Positions 2,541-7,705 of a DNA stretch of 7,705 bases are shown one piece after another. The notes under the pieces are model-generated. The model was not told the origin of the DNA. It saw only the letters and a program-made list of their open reading frames with translations, and searched no databases. The position numbers and the translations under genes were made by a program. This DNA comes from JBHIBR01 sp046759145 [NCBI: Nitrospinota bacterium] (lineage in GTDB: Bacteria > UBA8248), in the NCBI GenBank assembly GCA_046759145.1, contig JBHIBR010000075.1:1-7705 (forward strand), read 5' to 3'. Each line of letters begins with the position of its first letter. Within the stretch, counting starts at the first letter, position 1.

Positions 2541-2562
2541 AGGGGAGGAGACTTCCTCCCCT
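2541..2562 (-). terminator. Hairpin at the convergent gene junction, putative terminator
   Basis: A perfect 9-bp inverted repeat, AGGGGAGGA (2541-2549) and TCCTCCCCT (2554-2562), with a four-base loop. It begins at the last base of the permease stop codon on the minus strand. The bases that follow on that strand are pyrimidine-rich but lack a true T-run. Being symmetrical, it could also stop transcripts of the amidohydrolase, which ends at 2435. A weaker hairpin, CCCCC (2495-2499) with GGGGG (2504-2508), lies nearby. Confidence 0.5.
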
Positions 2563-4988
2563 CAGGGGCTCCTGCTCGCCTCGGGCAAGGGTGCCACCTC
2601 TTGAGCAGGAACCGGGCGGGCGCGCTGCACGTAGAGGGAGAAAGCCATTAAGGTCACTCCGGCCATCTTGGGGGCATAGCCGGGCCAGAAGAGGCCGAAG
2701 GCCGCCCCTGCGAGCACCAGCCGCTCCCACCAGGCGAGCCGCCTGAGCAGGTATCCCTCCAGCGCCGCCGAGCTGCAGATGAAGCCCAGGGCCGCCCCCG
2801 CCCACGTCACCACCACCTCCGTCCAGGGGCCATTCATCAGGATGGGCGTGTAGGCCATCAGGAGGGGAATGACGTAAAGGGGCTTGGCCAGGCGCAGGGA
2901 GATGAAGCCAGTCCGCATCGGGTCGGTGCCAGCCAGGCCGGCGGCGATGAAAGCCGCCAGGGCGAACGGCGGTGTCAGGGAGGCGTCCTGACTGAGCCAC
3001 AAGATGATGAGGTGGGCCGGGAGCTCCGGCACGCCCAGCTCGATGAGGGCGGGCACGGCCAGGATGGAGAGAAGGATGTAGGAGGCTGTGATGGTCATGC
3101 CCATCCCCAGGATGTAGGAGGCGATGGCGCACAGCAGAAGGGCTAGCGGCAGCATCCCGTAGGAATACGAGAGCACCAGTTGCGAGAACTTTAGGGCCAA
3201 CCCCGGCATAGTGACCCCGGCCAGGACGAGGCCCATCACCCCGGCCGTGGCGCCCACCACCAGCGAGTTGAGGGCGCCCTCGACGAGGGCATCCAGGATC
3301 TTGGGAGAAGAGAGGACGAGAGTGGCACCGATGAGCCAGAAGAGAGCGAACCCAAGAGAATGCCCCCAGGCCAGGAGCGCGACGAAGAGGCCGACGGAAG
3401 CCAGCAGGCCCCAGCTCTGTCGGACGGCGGACCACAGCTCCGGTTGCTCCGCCCCCGGCGCCCGGCCCCCTGGCTCCCTGCGGGGGGCCGTTCCACCTAG
3501 GTAGCGCAACAGCGCGGGCACCTGGAGGAGGCGAGTCTCTTTCTTCAGAGCGGAGAAGAGCAGGGCTGAAACGATGGACCAGAAGGCGGCGAAGAAGGGG
3601 GAGTAGCCGACGATGAGCAACATAATGAGGATCGCCACGGGGAGCAGCAAAATCCCGTCCTTCCGCAACGTCCCCCAGAAGTCGGGGAGCTCCTCCTTGG
3701 GCAAGCCCACAATGCCTTGTTTGCACGCTTCATAGTGGACCGACATGTAGACTGACAAGTAATACAGCAGGGCCGGCACCAGGGAGATGAGGGCCACGTA
3801 GACGTATTTCGTCTCCGTGAAGGCGGCCAGCAGGAAGGCCGCAGAGGCCATGATGGGGGGCATGAGGTGACCCCCGATGGAGGACACCGCCTCCACGGCC
3901 GCGGCGAATTGGGGCCTGTAACCCGAGCGCTTCATCAGGGGGATGGTGAAGGCTCCGGTGATGACGATGTTGGCCGCTCCGCTTCCCACCACAGAGCCCA
4001 CCATGCCGCTCGAGACCACCGAGGACTTGGCCGCCCCCCCTTTAAGCCGGCCCACCAGGGAGAAGGCCAGGTCCACGAAGACGTCCCCCACACGGGTCCG
4101 CTGGAGGAAGGCGCTGAAGAGGATGAAAAGGAACACGAAGGTGGCGTACACGTTGGCGATGACGCCGTAGACGCCCTCCTCGCTGTAGAGGAAGGCGATC
4201 ACGCCGTTGTAGGAGAACCCCTTGTGGGCTAGGCCCTCGGGAAAATAAGGCCCCCAGATACCGTAGAGGAAGAAGAAGACCCCTACCAAGGGCAGCACCA
4301 GGCCCAGCACGCGGCGGCACGACTCCAGCGCCACGATGGCGGCGAACGTCCCGAACACCACGTCGTTCCAGAGCACCACCCCAGCCCGATCGCCCCGTTC
4401 GACAAAATTGTAGATGTACTCAATAGTGAACGCGACAGTCAGTGCGCAGAGGGCGATGTCGGTCGCGGAGAGGCGGTCCCGGGGCGAGCGGCCCGAGGCA
4501 GGGTAGTAGATAAAGACCAGGAGGCTGGTGAAGAAGATGAAAAGGGGAAGGAAGTGGTGATAGGCGTAGAAGGGGAGGTCGGGGAACCGAAAGAATGTCA
4601 GCCGCTCGGCCACCCAGGGCACGTTGAGGGCGCTTCCGTTCACCGACCCGTAGAGGTAGTAAAGGCCGAAGGCCACGCCCAGGAGGAAACTCGTCCGCTT
4701 CGGGTAGAAGCAGAGCCCGGAGATGAACAGGTAGGCGGGGATCGCGATGGCCCAGGGGATGGGGGCCAGGTGGAGGGTTCCCCATTCGATCCCCTGTCCC
4801 TGGGGCAGGGGCGCCTGGACCTTCAGGCCCGCCAGGAGGAAGAGATAGACGGCCCCGAGCAGCGTGAAGCCGGCCCAGGCGTGGACGCCCTCGCGGGCGA
4901 ACCCTTCGTCCAGCCTGCGCCGCTGGGCGAGCTCGGGCGCGAAGATCACACGGACGGCCGCCCAGGTTTTCAGCAACAGGCCGCTCAC
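2562..4988 (-). CDS. TRAP transporter fused permease (DctQM type), TAXI class, with an internal duplicated membrane unit
   Basis: An 808-residue, highly hydrophobic inner-membrane protein that couples solute import to a sodium or proton gradient, taking substrate from the periplasmic TAXI protein. The first ~230 residues hold several membrane segments (about 37-55, 77-95, 99-115, 145-163, 175-194, 205-222), matching the fused small subunit. The DctM-like core follows, with the first signature at 331-380 (GSVVGSGAANIV, then AAVEAVSSIGGHLMPPIM) and the second at 628-653 (GMGMTITASYILLS) and 667-693 (SQDASLTPPFALAAF, AGTDPMRTG). Two more hydrophobic segments end the protein. Residues 445-480 and 526-561 are similar to each other and joined by an Arg/Pro/Gly-rich loop (about 498-515), which as I recall is not usual. 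The start is the GTG at 4988; an in-frame stop lies upstream with no other start between. GGGA lies close before it, and the Shine-Dalgarno is weak. It is downstream of the binding protein gene, likely in one operon. The substrate is unknown. Confidence 0.95.
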   Translation of the reverse strand: MSGLLLKTWAAVRVIFAPELAQRRRLDEGFAREGVHAWAGFTLLGAVYLFLLAGLKVQAPLPQGQGIEWGTLHLAPIPWAIAIPAYLFISGLCFYPKRTSFLLGVAFGLYYLYGSVNGSALNVPWVAERLTFFRFPDLPFYAYHHFLPLFIFFTSLLVFIYYPASGRSPRDRLSATDIALCALTVAFTIEYIYNFVERGDRAGVVLWNDVVFGTFAAIVALESCRRVLGLVLPLVGVFFFLYGIWGPYFPEGLAHKGFSYNGVIAFLYSEEGVYGVIANVYATFVFLFILFSAFLQRTRVGDVFVDLAFSLVGRLKGGAAKSSVVSSGMVGSVVGSGAANIVITGAFTIPLMKRSGYRPQFAAAVEAVSSIGGHLMPPIMASAAFLLAAFTETKYVYVALISLVPALLYYLSVYMSVHYEACKQGIVGLPKEELPDFWGTLRKDGILLLPVAILIMLLIVGYSPFFAAFWSIVSALLFSALKKETRLLQVPALLRYLGGTAPRREPGGRAPGAEQPELWSAVRQSWGLLASVGLFVALLAWGHSLGFALFWLIGATLVLSSPKILDALVEGALNSLVVGATAGVMGLVLAGVTMPGLALKFSQLVLSYSYGMLPLALLLCAIASYILGMGMTITASYILLSILAVPALIELGVPELPAHLIILWLSQDASLTPPFALAAFIAAGLAGTDPMRTGFISLRLAKPLYVIPLLMAYTPILMNGPWTEVVVTWAGAALGFICSSAALEGYLLRRLAWWERLVLAGAAFGLFWPGYAPKMAGVTLMAFSLYVQRARPVPAQEVAPLPEASRSP
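3306..3656 (-). repeat. Internal protein-level tandem repeat inside the TRAP permease
   Basis: Permease residues 445-480 and 526-561 align without gaps, with 14 of 36 identities by my hand count. The shared pattern includes LL...V.....LL..G.S..FA.FW.I...L..S. The offset is 81 residues (243 bases). Each copy could form two membrane segments, so duplication would preserve the topology of what follows. In the TAXI permeases I remember, the first copy leads directly to the LDALVEG-like segment, which here follows the second copy (residue 565 on). The repeat is diverged, so it is old or an independent insertion. Confidence 0.5.
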
Positions 4989-5205: not shown

Positions 5206-6207
5206 CTAGTTGGCGATTTTTGTCGGGATCGGAATCCCCCGCTCCTTCCAGTACCGCTCCGCCCCTGGGTGGAGCTTCAGGTTGAAGGAGGCCATGCCCT
5301 TTAGGTCCGGCGCGGCCCTAAGGCCGATCCGCCAGGACTTGAACGCGCTCACCAGGAACCGGTAGTTGGCCGGGTCGTAGTTGATCCGGGTCACTTCGTA
5401 CACGACCCGGGCGGGCACGTCCTTGTTGACGATGGAGTAGATGGTGTAGGCGACAGTCTTGGCCGCCTGCTTCTGCCCTTTGTAGGAGCCGGCGGGGATG
5501 ACCGACTTGTAGTAACCAGGGTTCATCTTGATGAACTTGTCCTGCATCCCGTCGGGGATGGAAACCAGGAATATGTTCCCCCCCGTCGAGGCCGTGAGGA
5601 CTGAGGGAGAAGGGATGGGGTTCGGGATGGTGAAGGCGTCGATCTTCCCGTCCATTAAGGCCCGGGCGGCGTGGTCCCAACGCTGGTAGTTTTTCGTGAC
5701 GCCCGCGAAGTAGCCCGCCCACTTGAAGATGAGCGAGGTCATGAACTCGGTGTTGCTGCCCTTGGCGGCGAAGTTGATGCGCCCGCCTTTGAGGTCAGCG
5801 AGCTTCCTCACCCCCTGGCGCTCGAGGGTGATGATGTGGAACCAGGAAGTGGTGACCGGGCCGATGCCTCGTATGTTCAGGTGCTTTCTCTTGTACTTGT
5901 TCTGGCCCAGCATGGCGTCAGTCAAGAGCGGCCCGTTGCACATCCCGAAGTCCGCCGTACCGCTGTTCACCAGCCGGGCGTTGGCCACGAAACCTTTCGA
6001 GGCGCGGTTGGTCATCTCCACCTTCTTGGAGACCTTGCTGACGACCGCCGCCAGCGCTCCGGCGAGGCGGAAGGCGCCCGCACCCGGCCCGGCGCCCACG
6101 ACGGCGACGCGCGCCTTCTCGGCTCCCTGGGTGATGTCGGCGGCGGCCCACCCCACCACGGACAGCGCCACCACGGCGCACACGACGAGACGCGAGAGCT
6201 TTCTCAT
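5206..6207 (-). CDS. TAXI-family TRAP transporter substrate-binding protein
   Basis: A 333-residue periplasmic binding protein, the usual TAXI length. Residues 1-23 form a signal peptide: a basic MRKLSR start, a hydrophobic stretch, then AAA before Asp24 as the likely cleavage site. The mature protein shows family landmarks: a Gly/Ala-rich first strand (GAGPGAGAFRLAG, 38-50), NARLVNSGTADFGM (76-89), VRKLADLKGGRINF (133-146), AARALMDGKIDAF (180-192), VIPAGSYKGQ (236-245) and the C-terminal LHPGAERYWKERGI (312-325). The ATG at 6207 is chosen over an in-frame extension to 6351 because it follows AGGAGG by seven bases (6215-6220) and starts the signal peptide. Canonical TAXI proteins usually have a GGTxGxYY-like N-terminal motif; here it is PGAGAFRLAG, which may affect ligand choice. 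It is the first gene of the operon with the permease downstream. The ligand is unknown. Confidence 0.93.
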   Translation of the reverse strand: MRKLSRLVVCAVVALSVVGWAAADITQGAEKARVAVVGAGPGAGAFRLAGALAAVVSKVSKKVEMTNRASKGFVANARLVNSGTADFGMCNGPLLTDAMLGQNKYKRKHLNIRGIGPVTTSWFHIITLERQGVRKLADLKGGRINFAAKGSNTEFMTSLIFKWAGYFAGVTKNYQRWDHAARALMDGKIDAFTIPNPIPSPSVLTASTGGNIFLVSIPDGMQDKFIKMNPGYYKSVIPAGSYKGQKQAAKTVAYTIYSIVNKDVPARVVYEVTRINYDPANYRFLVSAFKSWRIGLRAAPDLKGMASFNLKLHPGAERYWKERGIPIPTKIAN

Positions 6208-6491
6208 GCTCCTCCCTCCTCTGATACCGACAGCCCCTCCCGTCCAAGGGCGCCCTCCGGCTGAGTGCCGAGGACCCCGGGAAAACAGGGATATGATGAA
6301 ACCACCCCCCTGAAATGAGCTTTGCCCCAAAGAGCTACTCCTTCTTATCACGGGAGAGGGGAGGATTCAACGGCCTTCGCCTCTTTCACGACCCTCCGCT
6401 ATCATCGGGCCGATGCGCTCGCTGTGCCCCGCTCGGGGCAGGAGCAGGAGAGGCGGCCCCGCGCGTCCGTCTCGACAGAGGGGAGGAGAGG
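6208..6491. other. Divergent intergenic region between the TRAP operon and the GGT-like gene
   Basis: No gene is seen in these 284 bases. Promoter signals are weak. On the plus strand, TATCAT (6400-6405) is a fair -10 without a convincing -35. On the minus strand, TTGAAT (revcomp of 6365-6370) lies 15 bases from GATAAG, a poor spacing. A small palindrome CTTTG-CCC-CAAAG (6320-6332) lies between the two and could be an operator. TGCCCC (6425-6430) and GGGGCA (6435-6440) form a short hairpin above the GGT-like gene. Confidence 0.5.
6320..6332. promoter_or_regulatory. Small palindrome, possible operator
   Basis: CTTTG and CAAAG flank CCC in the middle of a divergent promoter region. The string CTTTGCCC also occurs in the hairpin between the binding protein and permease genes (5152-5159), where its reverse complement forms the other arm. 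A regulator site is possible, but five-base arms are easily met by chance. Confidence 0.2.
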
Positions 6492-7705
6492 ATGGCGGGA
6501 AGTAAGCCGAGAGGCGCGGTGGCGGCGGCCCACCCCCTGGCGGTGGAAGCGGCGACCGGGGTGCTCCGCAAGGGAGGAGATGCGGTGGATGCGGCCCTCG
6601 CAGCCGCCTTCACCCTGGGAGTGGCCGAGCCCTACTACTCGGGCCTGGGCGGAGGGGGCTTCCTCCTGACCCACCGGGCGGGCGGGGGTAGCGGGGGGAC
6701 GGGCTCCCAGGACCTCCTGGACTACCACTCCCGCTGTCCGCAGGGGGCGCGGCCGGAGATGTTCCGCGGAAAACCGGAGGGCGAGAAGGACTGGGGCTAC
6801 AGGGCGGCTCACGTCCCGGGAACTGCCCGGGGGCTCGCCGAGGCGAGGGAGCGCTACGGGCGGCTGCCCCTGGCCGAACTCCTCTCCCCGGCCATCGCCC
6901 ACGCCCACGGGGGGGTGGAGGTCACGCCCTTCTTCCACGCCCGGGCGAGCGAGCCGCGTTTCGGGGAGCTGTGCCGGAGCTGCCCCGCCTTCGCCGCCAT
7001 CTACTCGGATGGAGGGGAGCCCTGGCCCGTCGGCCACCGCCTGGTTCAGGCCGAGCTCGGGGCGAGCCTCGAGCGCGTCGCCCGCGAGGGGCCGGGCGCG
7101 CTCTATGGTGGCGAGCTCTCTGAGCCCGCCGAGCGGGAGTTTCGCTCCCCGGGTGGGCTCATCACCCGGGAAGACCTCTCCCGCTATGAGCCCCGGTGGG
7201 TGCCTCCCCTCCGCTCCACCTACCGGCGCTGGACCATCGTGACGAACCGCCTCCCCGGCTGCGGCCCCCACCTGCTCCAGGTGCTGAACCTCCTCGAGGC
7301 CCACGACCTGGCCGCCCTCGCCCCGGGGAGCCCTGAGTTCATCTCCCTCCTGGTTGCGGCCTTCGAGGTGACTTTCCGCGAGCGGTTCGCCTCCTGGGGA
7401 GACCCCGAGTGCGTGCGGCTGGATGAGGAGGAGTTGGTGGGGAAGGCCCGCGCCTCCGCCCTGGCGCGGGAGATGGTGCCCCGCCGGGCTCGACGTGGGC
7501 GGGGGAGACATTCCCCGGCCCGCGCCGAGGGCTCCACCACCCATCTCTCCGTGGTGGACGGCCGGGGAAACGCTGTGAGCCTCACCCAGACCCTGGGTTC
7601 TCCTTTCGGCTCGGGCGTCGTCGTTGCGGGGCTCGGCTTCTGCTGGAACAACCACATGCTCTGGATGGAGGCCGACCCGGCCTCCCCCAACGCCCCCGGC
7701 CCCGG
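6492..7705 (+). CDS. Gamma-glutamyltransferase-family Ntn hydrolase with altered pocket, cut at the right window edge
   Basis: 404 codons are visible from the ATG at 6492; GGAGG at 6482-6486 lies five bases upstream. GGT enzymes are made as one chain and cut themselves before a threonine, which becomes the N-terminal nucleophile of the small subunit. The family frame is clear: KGGDAVDAALAAAFTLGV (27-44), SGLGGGGFLL (50-59), PGTARGLAEARERYG (109-123), GGLITREDLSRYEP (221-234) and the processing motif STTHLSVVDGRGNAVSLTQT (348-367), with Thr349 the expected nucleophile. Three things are odd. There is no signal peptide, so it is probably cytoplasmic, unlike E. coli Ggt. Residues that hold the gamma-glutamyl group in E. 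coli Ggt (Arg114, Asn411, Gln430, Asp433) align with His79, Gly369, His388 and Leu390. The PPPSSGG segment is reduced to LPGCGPH (254-260), and the linker before the cut site is very Arg-rich (331-344). The enzyme is probably an active amidase on another substrate. It is divergent from the TRAP operon. Confidence 0.9.
   Translation, partial: MAGSKPRGAVAAAHPLAVEAATGVLRKGGDAVDAALAAAFTLGVAEPYYSGLGGGGFLLTHRAGGGSGGTGSQDLLDYHSRCPQGARPEMFRGKPEGEKDWGYRAAHVPGTARGLAEARERYGRLPLAELLSPAIAHAHGGVEVTPFFHARASEPRFGELCRSCPAFAAIYSDGGEPWPVGHRLVQAELGASLERVAREGPGALYGGELSEPAEREFRSPGGLITREDLSRYEPRWVPPLRSTYRRWTIVTNRLPGCGPHLLQVLNLLEAHDLAALAPGSPEFISLLVAAFEVTFRERFASWGDPECVRLDEEELVGKARASALAREMVPRRARRGRGRHSPARAEGSTTHLSVVDGRGNAVSLTQTLGSPFGSGVVVAGLGFCWNNHMLWMEADPASPNAPGP

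Follow-up and report, generated by a model that had tools for sequence, protein, structure and literature searches.

The window analysed here, a stretch of 7,705 nucleotides, ends within a GGT-family gene that lies divergently from a TAXI-TRAP importer. On balance, we lean slightly towards the reading that this gene encodes a cytoplasmic Ntn-hydrolase from a deep non-canonical branch of the GGT family, which would hydrolyse an imported compound other than a gamma-glutamyl one. Family membership, the retained Thr349 and T367, the loss of four glutamyl-binding residues, the missing leader and the divergence from the importer can be read from the sequence itself. The proenzyme would cleave itself before Thr349, and the freed threonine would attack, at its carbonyl, a small amide or ureide-like molecule brought in by the importer, rather than an ordinary gamma-glutamyl amide, after which water would free the acyl group for catabolism. 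The features of the window are as follows.

3-752, - strand: FdrA/AllF-like protein, N-terminal 250 amino acids (45.6% identity to E. coli FdrA/AllF, 44.4% to YahF)
1164-2435, + strand: M20 hydantoinase/carbamoylase-family amidohydrolase (33.6% identity to E. coli AllC)
2562-4988, - strand: TRAP transporter fused permease, following the TAXI binding-protein gene
5206-6207, - strand: TRAP solute-binding protein of the TAXI family, in divergent orientation to the GGT gene, with its start taken at the ATG of MRKLSR
6492-7705, + strand: GGT-family (PF01019) Ntn-hydrolase proenzyme gene, leaderless, 404 amino acids within the window and 3′ end beyond it
6720-6731, + strand: DYHS (residues 77-80) replacing DFRE (E. 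coli 112-115), H79 at the R114 site, by alignment
7536-7538, + strand: Thr349, equivalent to E. coli T391, predicted self-cleavage site and nucleophile, by alignment
7590-7598, + strand: TLG (367-369) replacing TLN, with T367 (T409) kept and N411 changed to G369, by alignment
7647-7664, + strand: NNHMLW (386-391) replacing NNQMDD (428-433), with Q430 changed to H388 and D433 to W391, by alignment

Translation from the ATG at 6492 gives 404 amino acids, and the open reading frame is still open where the window ends, a point that the initial annotation had missed. The protein matches the PF01019 profile with an E value of 7e-89, covering positions 3-390 of the 512 in the profile, and its 299.4 bits far exceed the curated membership cut-off of 27. 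Its TIGR00066 equivalog score is 250.6 bits against a cut-off of 357.85, for a query that is incomplete at the C-terminus; the equivalents of E. coli S462/S463 and of the oxyanion glycines G483/G484 fall beyond the window end. The sequence GGGGAGGAG stands directly upstream of the ATG, and the domain core starts after only 7 residues. Hydropathy means over 12 residues peak at 0.14 in the N-terminus, at 0.75 in the upstream extension and at 2.08 in E. coli Ggt; the N-terminus is not hydrophobic, and a signal peptide of the E. coli type is lacking. Because there is no leader, a cytoplasmic location of the enzyme is supported, as the initial annotation had predicted.

Aligned to E. coli K-12 Ggt, the window protein is of the same family and keeps T391, T392, H393 and T409 as T349, T350, H351 and T367, whereas the canonical set of R114, N411, Q/E430 and D433 is replaced by H79, G369, H388 and W391. 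The retained Thr349 with its surrounding motif and the three replaced motifs had been reported in the initial annotation, and every letter and position proved correct. A structure model built from five sequences reached a mean pLDDT of 68 and a pTM of 0.74, with pLDDT below 50 at residues 386-404, and is too poor for a judgement on the pocket or on the place of Arg81. Its best fold match is the E. coli Ggt precursor 2e0w (E 7.7e-22, TM 0.78 by query), which is also the best PDB match by sequence.

The loss of the glutamyl-binding residues is real but common in the family, not exceptional, because both R114 and D433 are missing in 42 of 91 sampled PF01019 proteins (39 of 87 without four badly aligned rows, L323-L326, which are included in the counts over 91). 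This sample comprises all listed PF01019 proteins of 60 Pseudomonadota genomes, 41 of which have at least one; its 96 listed rows correspond to 91 aligned proteins, as five proteins are listed in two pieces each. All four canonical positions (R114, N411, Q/E430 and D433) are changed in 39 of the 91, while Arg is found at the R114 site in 49, Asp at the D433 site in 45, and Thr or Ser at the 391 site in 89.

Loss of the arginine does not exclude gamma-glutamyl hydrolysis, and the initial annotation, which had taken these replacements to indicate cleavage of an amide that is not gamma-glutamyl, is in this respect too strong; what speaks for its claim are the trees, the importer context and the precedents of LmbA and HpxW described below. 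The enzyme may still be a gamma-glutamyl hydrolase whose pocket has been rebuilt, as in leaderless extremophile GGTs, perhaps by Arg81, His79 or C-terminal residues, which we consider unlikely, if well worth weighing. Arg81 is indeed present, at a position where related groups carry R, T, P, K, C, I or V. According to a review (PMC8062742), GtGGT, TtGGT and DrGGT are without signal peptides and hydrolyse gamma-glutamyl substrates without transpeptidation, and the enzyme from G. thermodenitrificans (GtGGT) does so with Ser where E. coli has R114 and with His-Thr in place of the two serines; the same source gives 85% of hydrolysis retained in B. licheniformis GGT R109S and 82% in EcGGT D433N. 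The activities in one of its tables, for assays that are not matched, are nevertheless low in these enzymes: GtGGT has 0.36 U/mg, compared with 4.25 for E. coli and 185.6 for the B. licheniformis enzyme, and the leaderless extremophile GGTs range from 0.06 to 0.36 U/mg (PMC8062742). It also counts against a rebuilt gamma-glutamyl pocket that four pocket residues have changed together in the window protein.

Over most of the length of the protein, identity to relatives from searches of 94, 247 and 398 genomes does not rise above 41%, although short pieces in the search of 94 reach 52%; the searches of 247 and 398 genomes used a cut-off of E 1e-40, and for the 398 genomes the statement applies among the matches listed. 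Relatives in genome contigs were found at four loci, with 30-37% identity, and viral contigs yielded no relative of the window protein. We name the groups of family members by motif (NASGR, FH, DGxST, NNGxxWFDP and LmbA-like), beside the canonical GGTs. The NASGR group has Ser at 114 and His-Thr in place of the two serines, the same changes that the review describes in extremophile GGTs (PMC8062742).

A GGT-family tree, proposed in the initial annotation, was built with canonical GGTs and, in its third version, LmbA-like proteins, and in all three versions it places the window protein apart from the E. coli-type GGTs. In a quick tree of 82 of 83 rows (L052 left out), the window protein grouped with FH, DGxST and NNGxxWFDP at an SH-aLRT value of 92, and stood next to FH, also at 92, outside every starred set of that tree. 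A careful tree of 44 chosen rows separated the window, FH, DGxST and NNGxxWFDP from the canonical and NASGR proteins at 99/96; in this tree only, the window protein adjoined NNGxxWFDP (78/86) and was not joined to FH. The third tree, with 45 rows after the removal of L012, L051, L002, L049 and L064 and the addition of six LmbA-like rows, recovered the same half at 93/93, with the window next to FH at 68/85. In AU tests of groups that were named only after the first trees had been seen, placement of the window with NASGR was rejected (p 0.004), while placement with the canonical GGTs (p 0.074) or with NNGxxWFDP (p 0.453) was not. The result for the canonical GGTs leaves room for a gamma-glutamyl hydrolase, whereas rejection from NASGR, where the motifs of the leaderless extremophile enzymes occur, speaks against one. 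Taken together, a position in the non-canonical half, apart from E. coli-type GGTs, appears fairly well supported by these trees, and no sister group is well supported, the nearest being FH or NNGxxWFDP depending on the tree.

The window protein forms a long lone branch, with 1.38-1.59 changes per column across the three trees (1.59 in the quick tree). This length, and the absence of close relatives among those found, would fit an inactive or decaying GGT, an explanation to which we attach very little weight for a frame that is open over 404 codons and keeps T349, T350, H351 and T367.

The FH group (L149-L158 and L037) resembles the window protein: R114 is replaced by His in 9 of its 11 members and by Tyr in L154 and L155, the nucleophile of L039 lies within GSTTHL, and NxxM takes the place of NNQMDD; eight of nine checked members are without a clear leader, and L151 is ambiguous. 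The window protein differs in that it has neither the two-residue deletion before SG nor the longer insert before GY of the FH proteins, and in its Trp at 433, and it joins the group only weakly (92 in the quick tree, 68/85 in the third, not in the careful one). The Trp at the D433 site is found again in the NNGxxWFDP group (L004, L162-L176), which also shares the TQTL and FGS motifs, as well as importer and M20 genes nearby in six plasmid loci. This group, however, has Gly or Ala at R114, and its M20 proteins belong to another subfamily with no significant BLAST match to the window M20 protein. No characterised member of either the FH or the NNGxxWFDP group was found.

The association with binding-protein importers was surveyed at 74 loci by seed searches for a TctC, oligopeptide ABC or TAXI component within 3 kb of the GGT open frame. 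The seeds were taken from FH loci, NNGxxWFDP loci and the window; the canonical loci are only a partial control, and their count covers these importer types and no others. An importer was found at 9 of 11 FH loci, namely TctC at L149, L150, L151, L152 and L037, oligopeptide ABC at L154, L155 and L156, and TAXI at L158; the five TctC-linked loci look closely related. The remaining two, L153 and L157, have none within 3 kb by these seeds, and L157 has an adjoining M20 gene. Of the NNGxxWFDP loci, 6 of 16 have an importer within this distance (L004 and five of six plasmid loci); at the sixth plasmid locus, L172, the seeds match 4.4 kb away, and nine further loci have none within 3 kb by these seeds. 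The count is 3 of 20 for NASGR (L212, L217 and L218), 0 of 6 for DGxST and 0 of 21 for canonical loci, although E. coli ggt itself is located near ugp transporter genes. Pfam scans of the neighbours agree with the seed result for L149, L156 and L158. These observations support a link of some related non-canonical groups with binding-protein importers. Literature searches outside most subscription journals listed either no paper that links genes of the GGT family to importers of the TRAP, TctC or peptide type, or a single proteomics paper.

At the six NNGxxWFDP plasmid loci (L171-L176), which were picked, not blind, out of 25 rows listed from 722 records, the ABC importer genes share one strand with GGT and M20. 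The recurring run joins the binding protein, permeases and ATPase(s) of an ABC importer to GGT and an M20 metallopeptidase, five of the six loci also have an IclR-type regulator, and the run is likely to be an uptake and degradation operon. Further arrangements were seen elsewhere. At the NASGR-type locus L218 (5609-10315), the open frames for a TAXI protein, TRAP permease and GGT adjoin one another on one strand. The FH-type GGT of L156 (3585-12490) lies between two oligopeptide permease gene pairs, with creatininase-family and short-chain dehydrogenase genes. In two genomes, the canonical GGT genes of L206 and L207 are separated by about 1.3-1.5 kb, measured between open-frame bounds, from an M20 homologue of the carbamoylase type.

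The GGT gene and the TAXI gene on the opposite strand start 284 bases apart, at 6492 and 6207. The initial annotation had suggested that the substrate is the compound imported by this neighbouring transporter, and the importer linkage in related groups speaks for it; for the lineage of the window itself the linkage is a single case, because the searches gave no relative that exceeds 41% identity over most of the sequence. Glutamate is a known ligand of two TAXI binding proteins (PMC11574862), which would suit a gamma-glutamyl hydrolase. In one of the TAXI type, VcGluP, affinity for glutamate is reported to be affected most by Y45A and Q93A and little by E125A (PMC11574862); PDB chain 8s4j, anchored on Y45, agrees with the numbering of that paper at seven other checked residues. 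The window TAXI protein, which was searched as 5209-6243, 12 residues longer than from the annotated start, has F, F, N and S at VcGluP Y45, S75, Q93 and E125 in one pairwise alignment and is thus without these glutamate contacts. Tyr45 to Phe is a mild change. The contact changes argue mildly against glutamate as the ligand, and in this way against gamma-glutamyl hydrolysis.

The other two genes of the window, the divergent FdrA/AllF-like fragment and the M20 gene, could possibly mark a ureide catabolism locus. The M20 gene passes the cut-offs of the hydantoinase/carbamoylase and of one allantoate amidohydrolase subfamily, and the model that gives it the highest score is ErtE, whose cut-off it does not reach. 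Such a setting raises the alternative that the GGT-family enzyme is an oxamate (or similar ureide-derived) amidohydrolase, a counterpart of HpxW that works with the FdrA/AllF-like and M20 genes; we regard this as improbable. HpxW, which acts in ureide catabolism, is described as a GGT-family oxamate amidohydrolase, and B. subtilis YwrD is said to resemble it closely (PMC5270733). E. coli FdrA, YlbE and YlbF form an oxamic transcarbamylase that makes oxamate, which is reportedly not metabolised further there (PMC11326118). The identities of the window proteins to FdrA and to AllC are in keeping with this alternative, and the HpxW structure 5hft is among the fold hits of the model, at rank 50. 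Against it, the window FdrA-like protein is nearly as similar to YahF, a protein with no more than a putative annotation, the FdrA seed has no match at the 74 other loci, and the GGT, FdrA/AllF-like and M20 genes share no operon in the window. HpxW and the NASGR/extremophile type are likewise GGT-family enzymes without R114 and D433, but their motifs are ASG, QNRG and HT, whereas the window protein has DYHS and NNHM, with the HT site beyond the window. In a Klebsiella record, PF01019 frames without annotation lie between hpxU and hpxX; we take them by their position to be hpxW, and they show NASGR-type motifs. Membership of the window protein in the HpxW/NASGR group was rejected by the AU test, and HpxW is kept as a functional counterpart only. 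The PF01019 gene at this place in the Klebsiella record (L239/L240, CP125156.1, about 2556290-2557785) is split over two frames and carries no annotation. A wider version, in which the window protein, FH, DGxST and NNGxxWFDP form, within the GGT family, a large half of cytoplasmic amidohydrolases, many of them importer-coupled, with the window lineage, beside its AllF-like and carbamoylase-like genes, hydrolysing oxamate or a related ureide amide, seems just as doubtful. If it were true, the enzyme would act on a product for which E. coli has no further use.

The LmbA-type enzymes provide the other precedent. LmbA and Ant6 are described as GGT homologues with a Thr nucleophile that cleave a carbon-carbon bond (PMC5519988), and the window enzyme might do the same instead of cleaving an amide, which we think highly improbable. 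LmbA2991 (PDB 6j3a and 6j3i) and LmbA-like proteins are GGT homologues with another reaction and an ABC-importer context, but have TPSGGWLQ in place of TLN...FGS, and in the third tree they form a clade of their own that is joined to NASGR at 100/99, away from the window. Trp391 was considered as a link to LmbA and rejected, as the LmbA Trp is two positions further on. Among five plasmid loci with annotation, chosen out of 15 rows listed, LmbA-like genes lie inside ABC-importer operons at four; these are L231, L232, L235 and L236, on alphaproteobacterial plasmids, and the operons are of the peptide type. A Zn-dependent hydrolase and an amidohydrolase are also found near L236.

Hydrolysis of an imported, non-gamma-glutamyl compound is the reading that we slightly favour for the window enzyme. 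For the family at large, with 42 of 91 sampled proteins lacking both R114 and D433, the usual name of gamma-glutamyltransferase may be misleading for a good part of its members. Where a GGT-like gene stands beside a binding-protein importer, the ligand of the binding protein would offer a direct route to the substrate of the enzyme.
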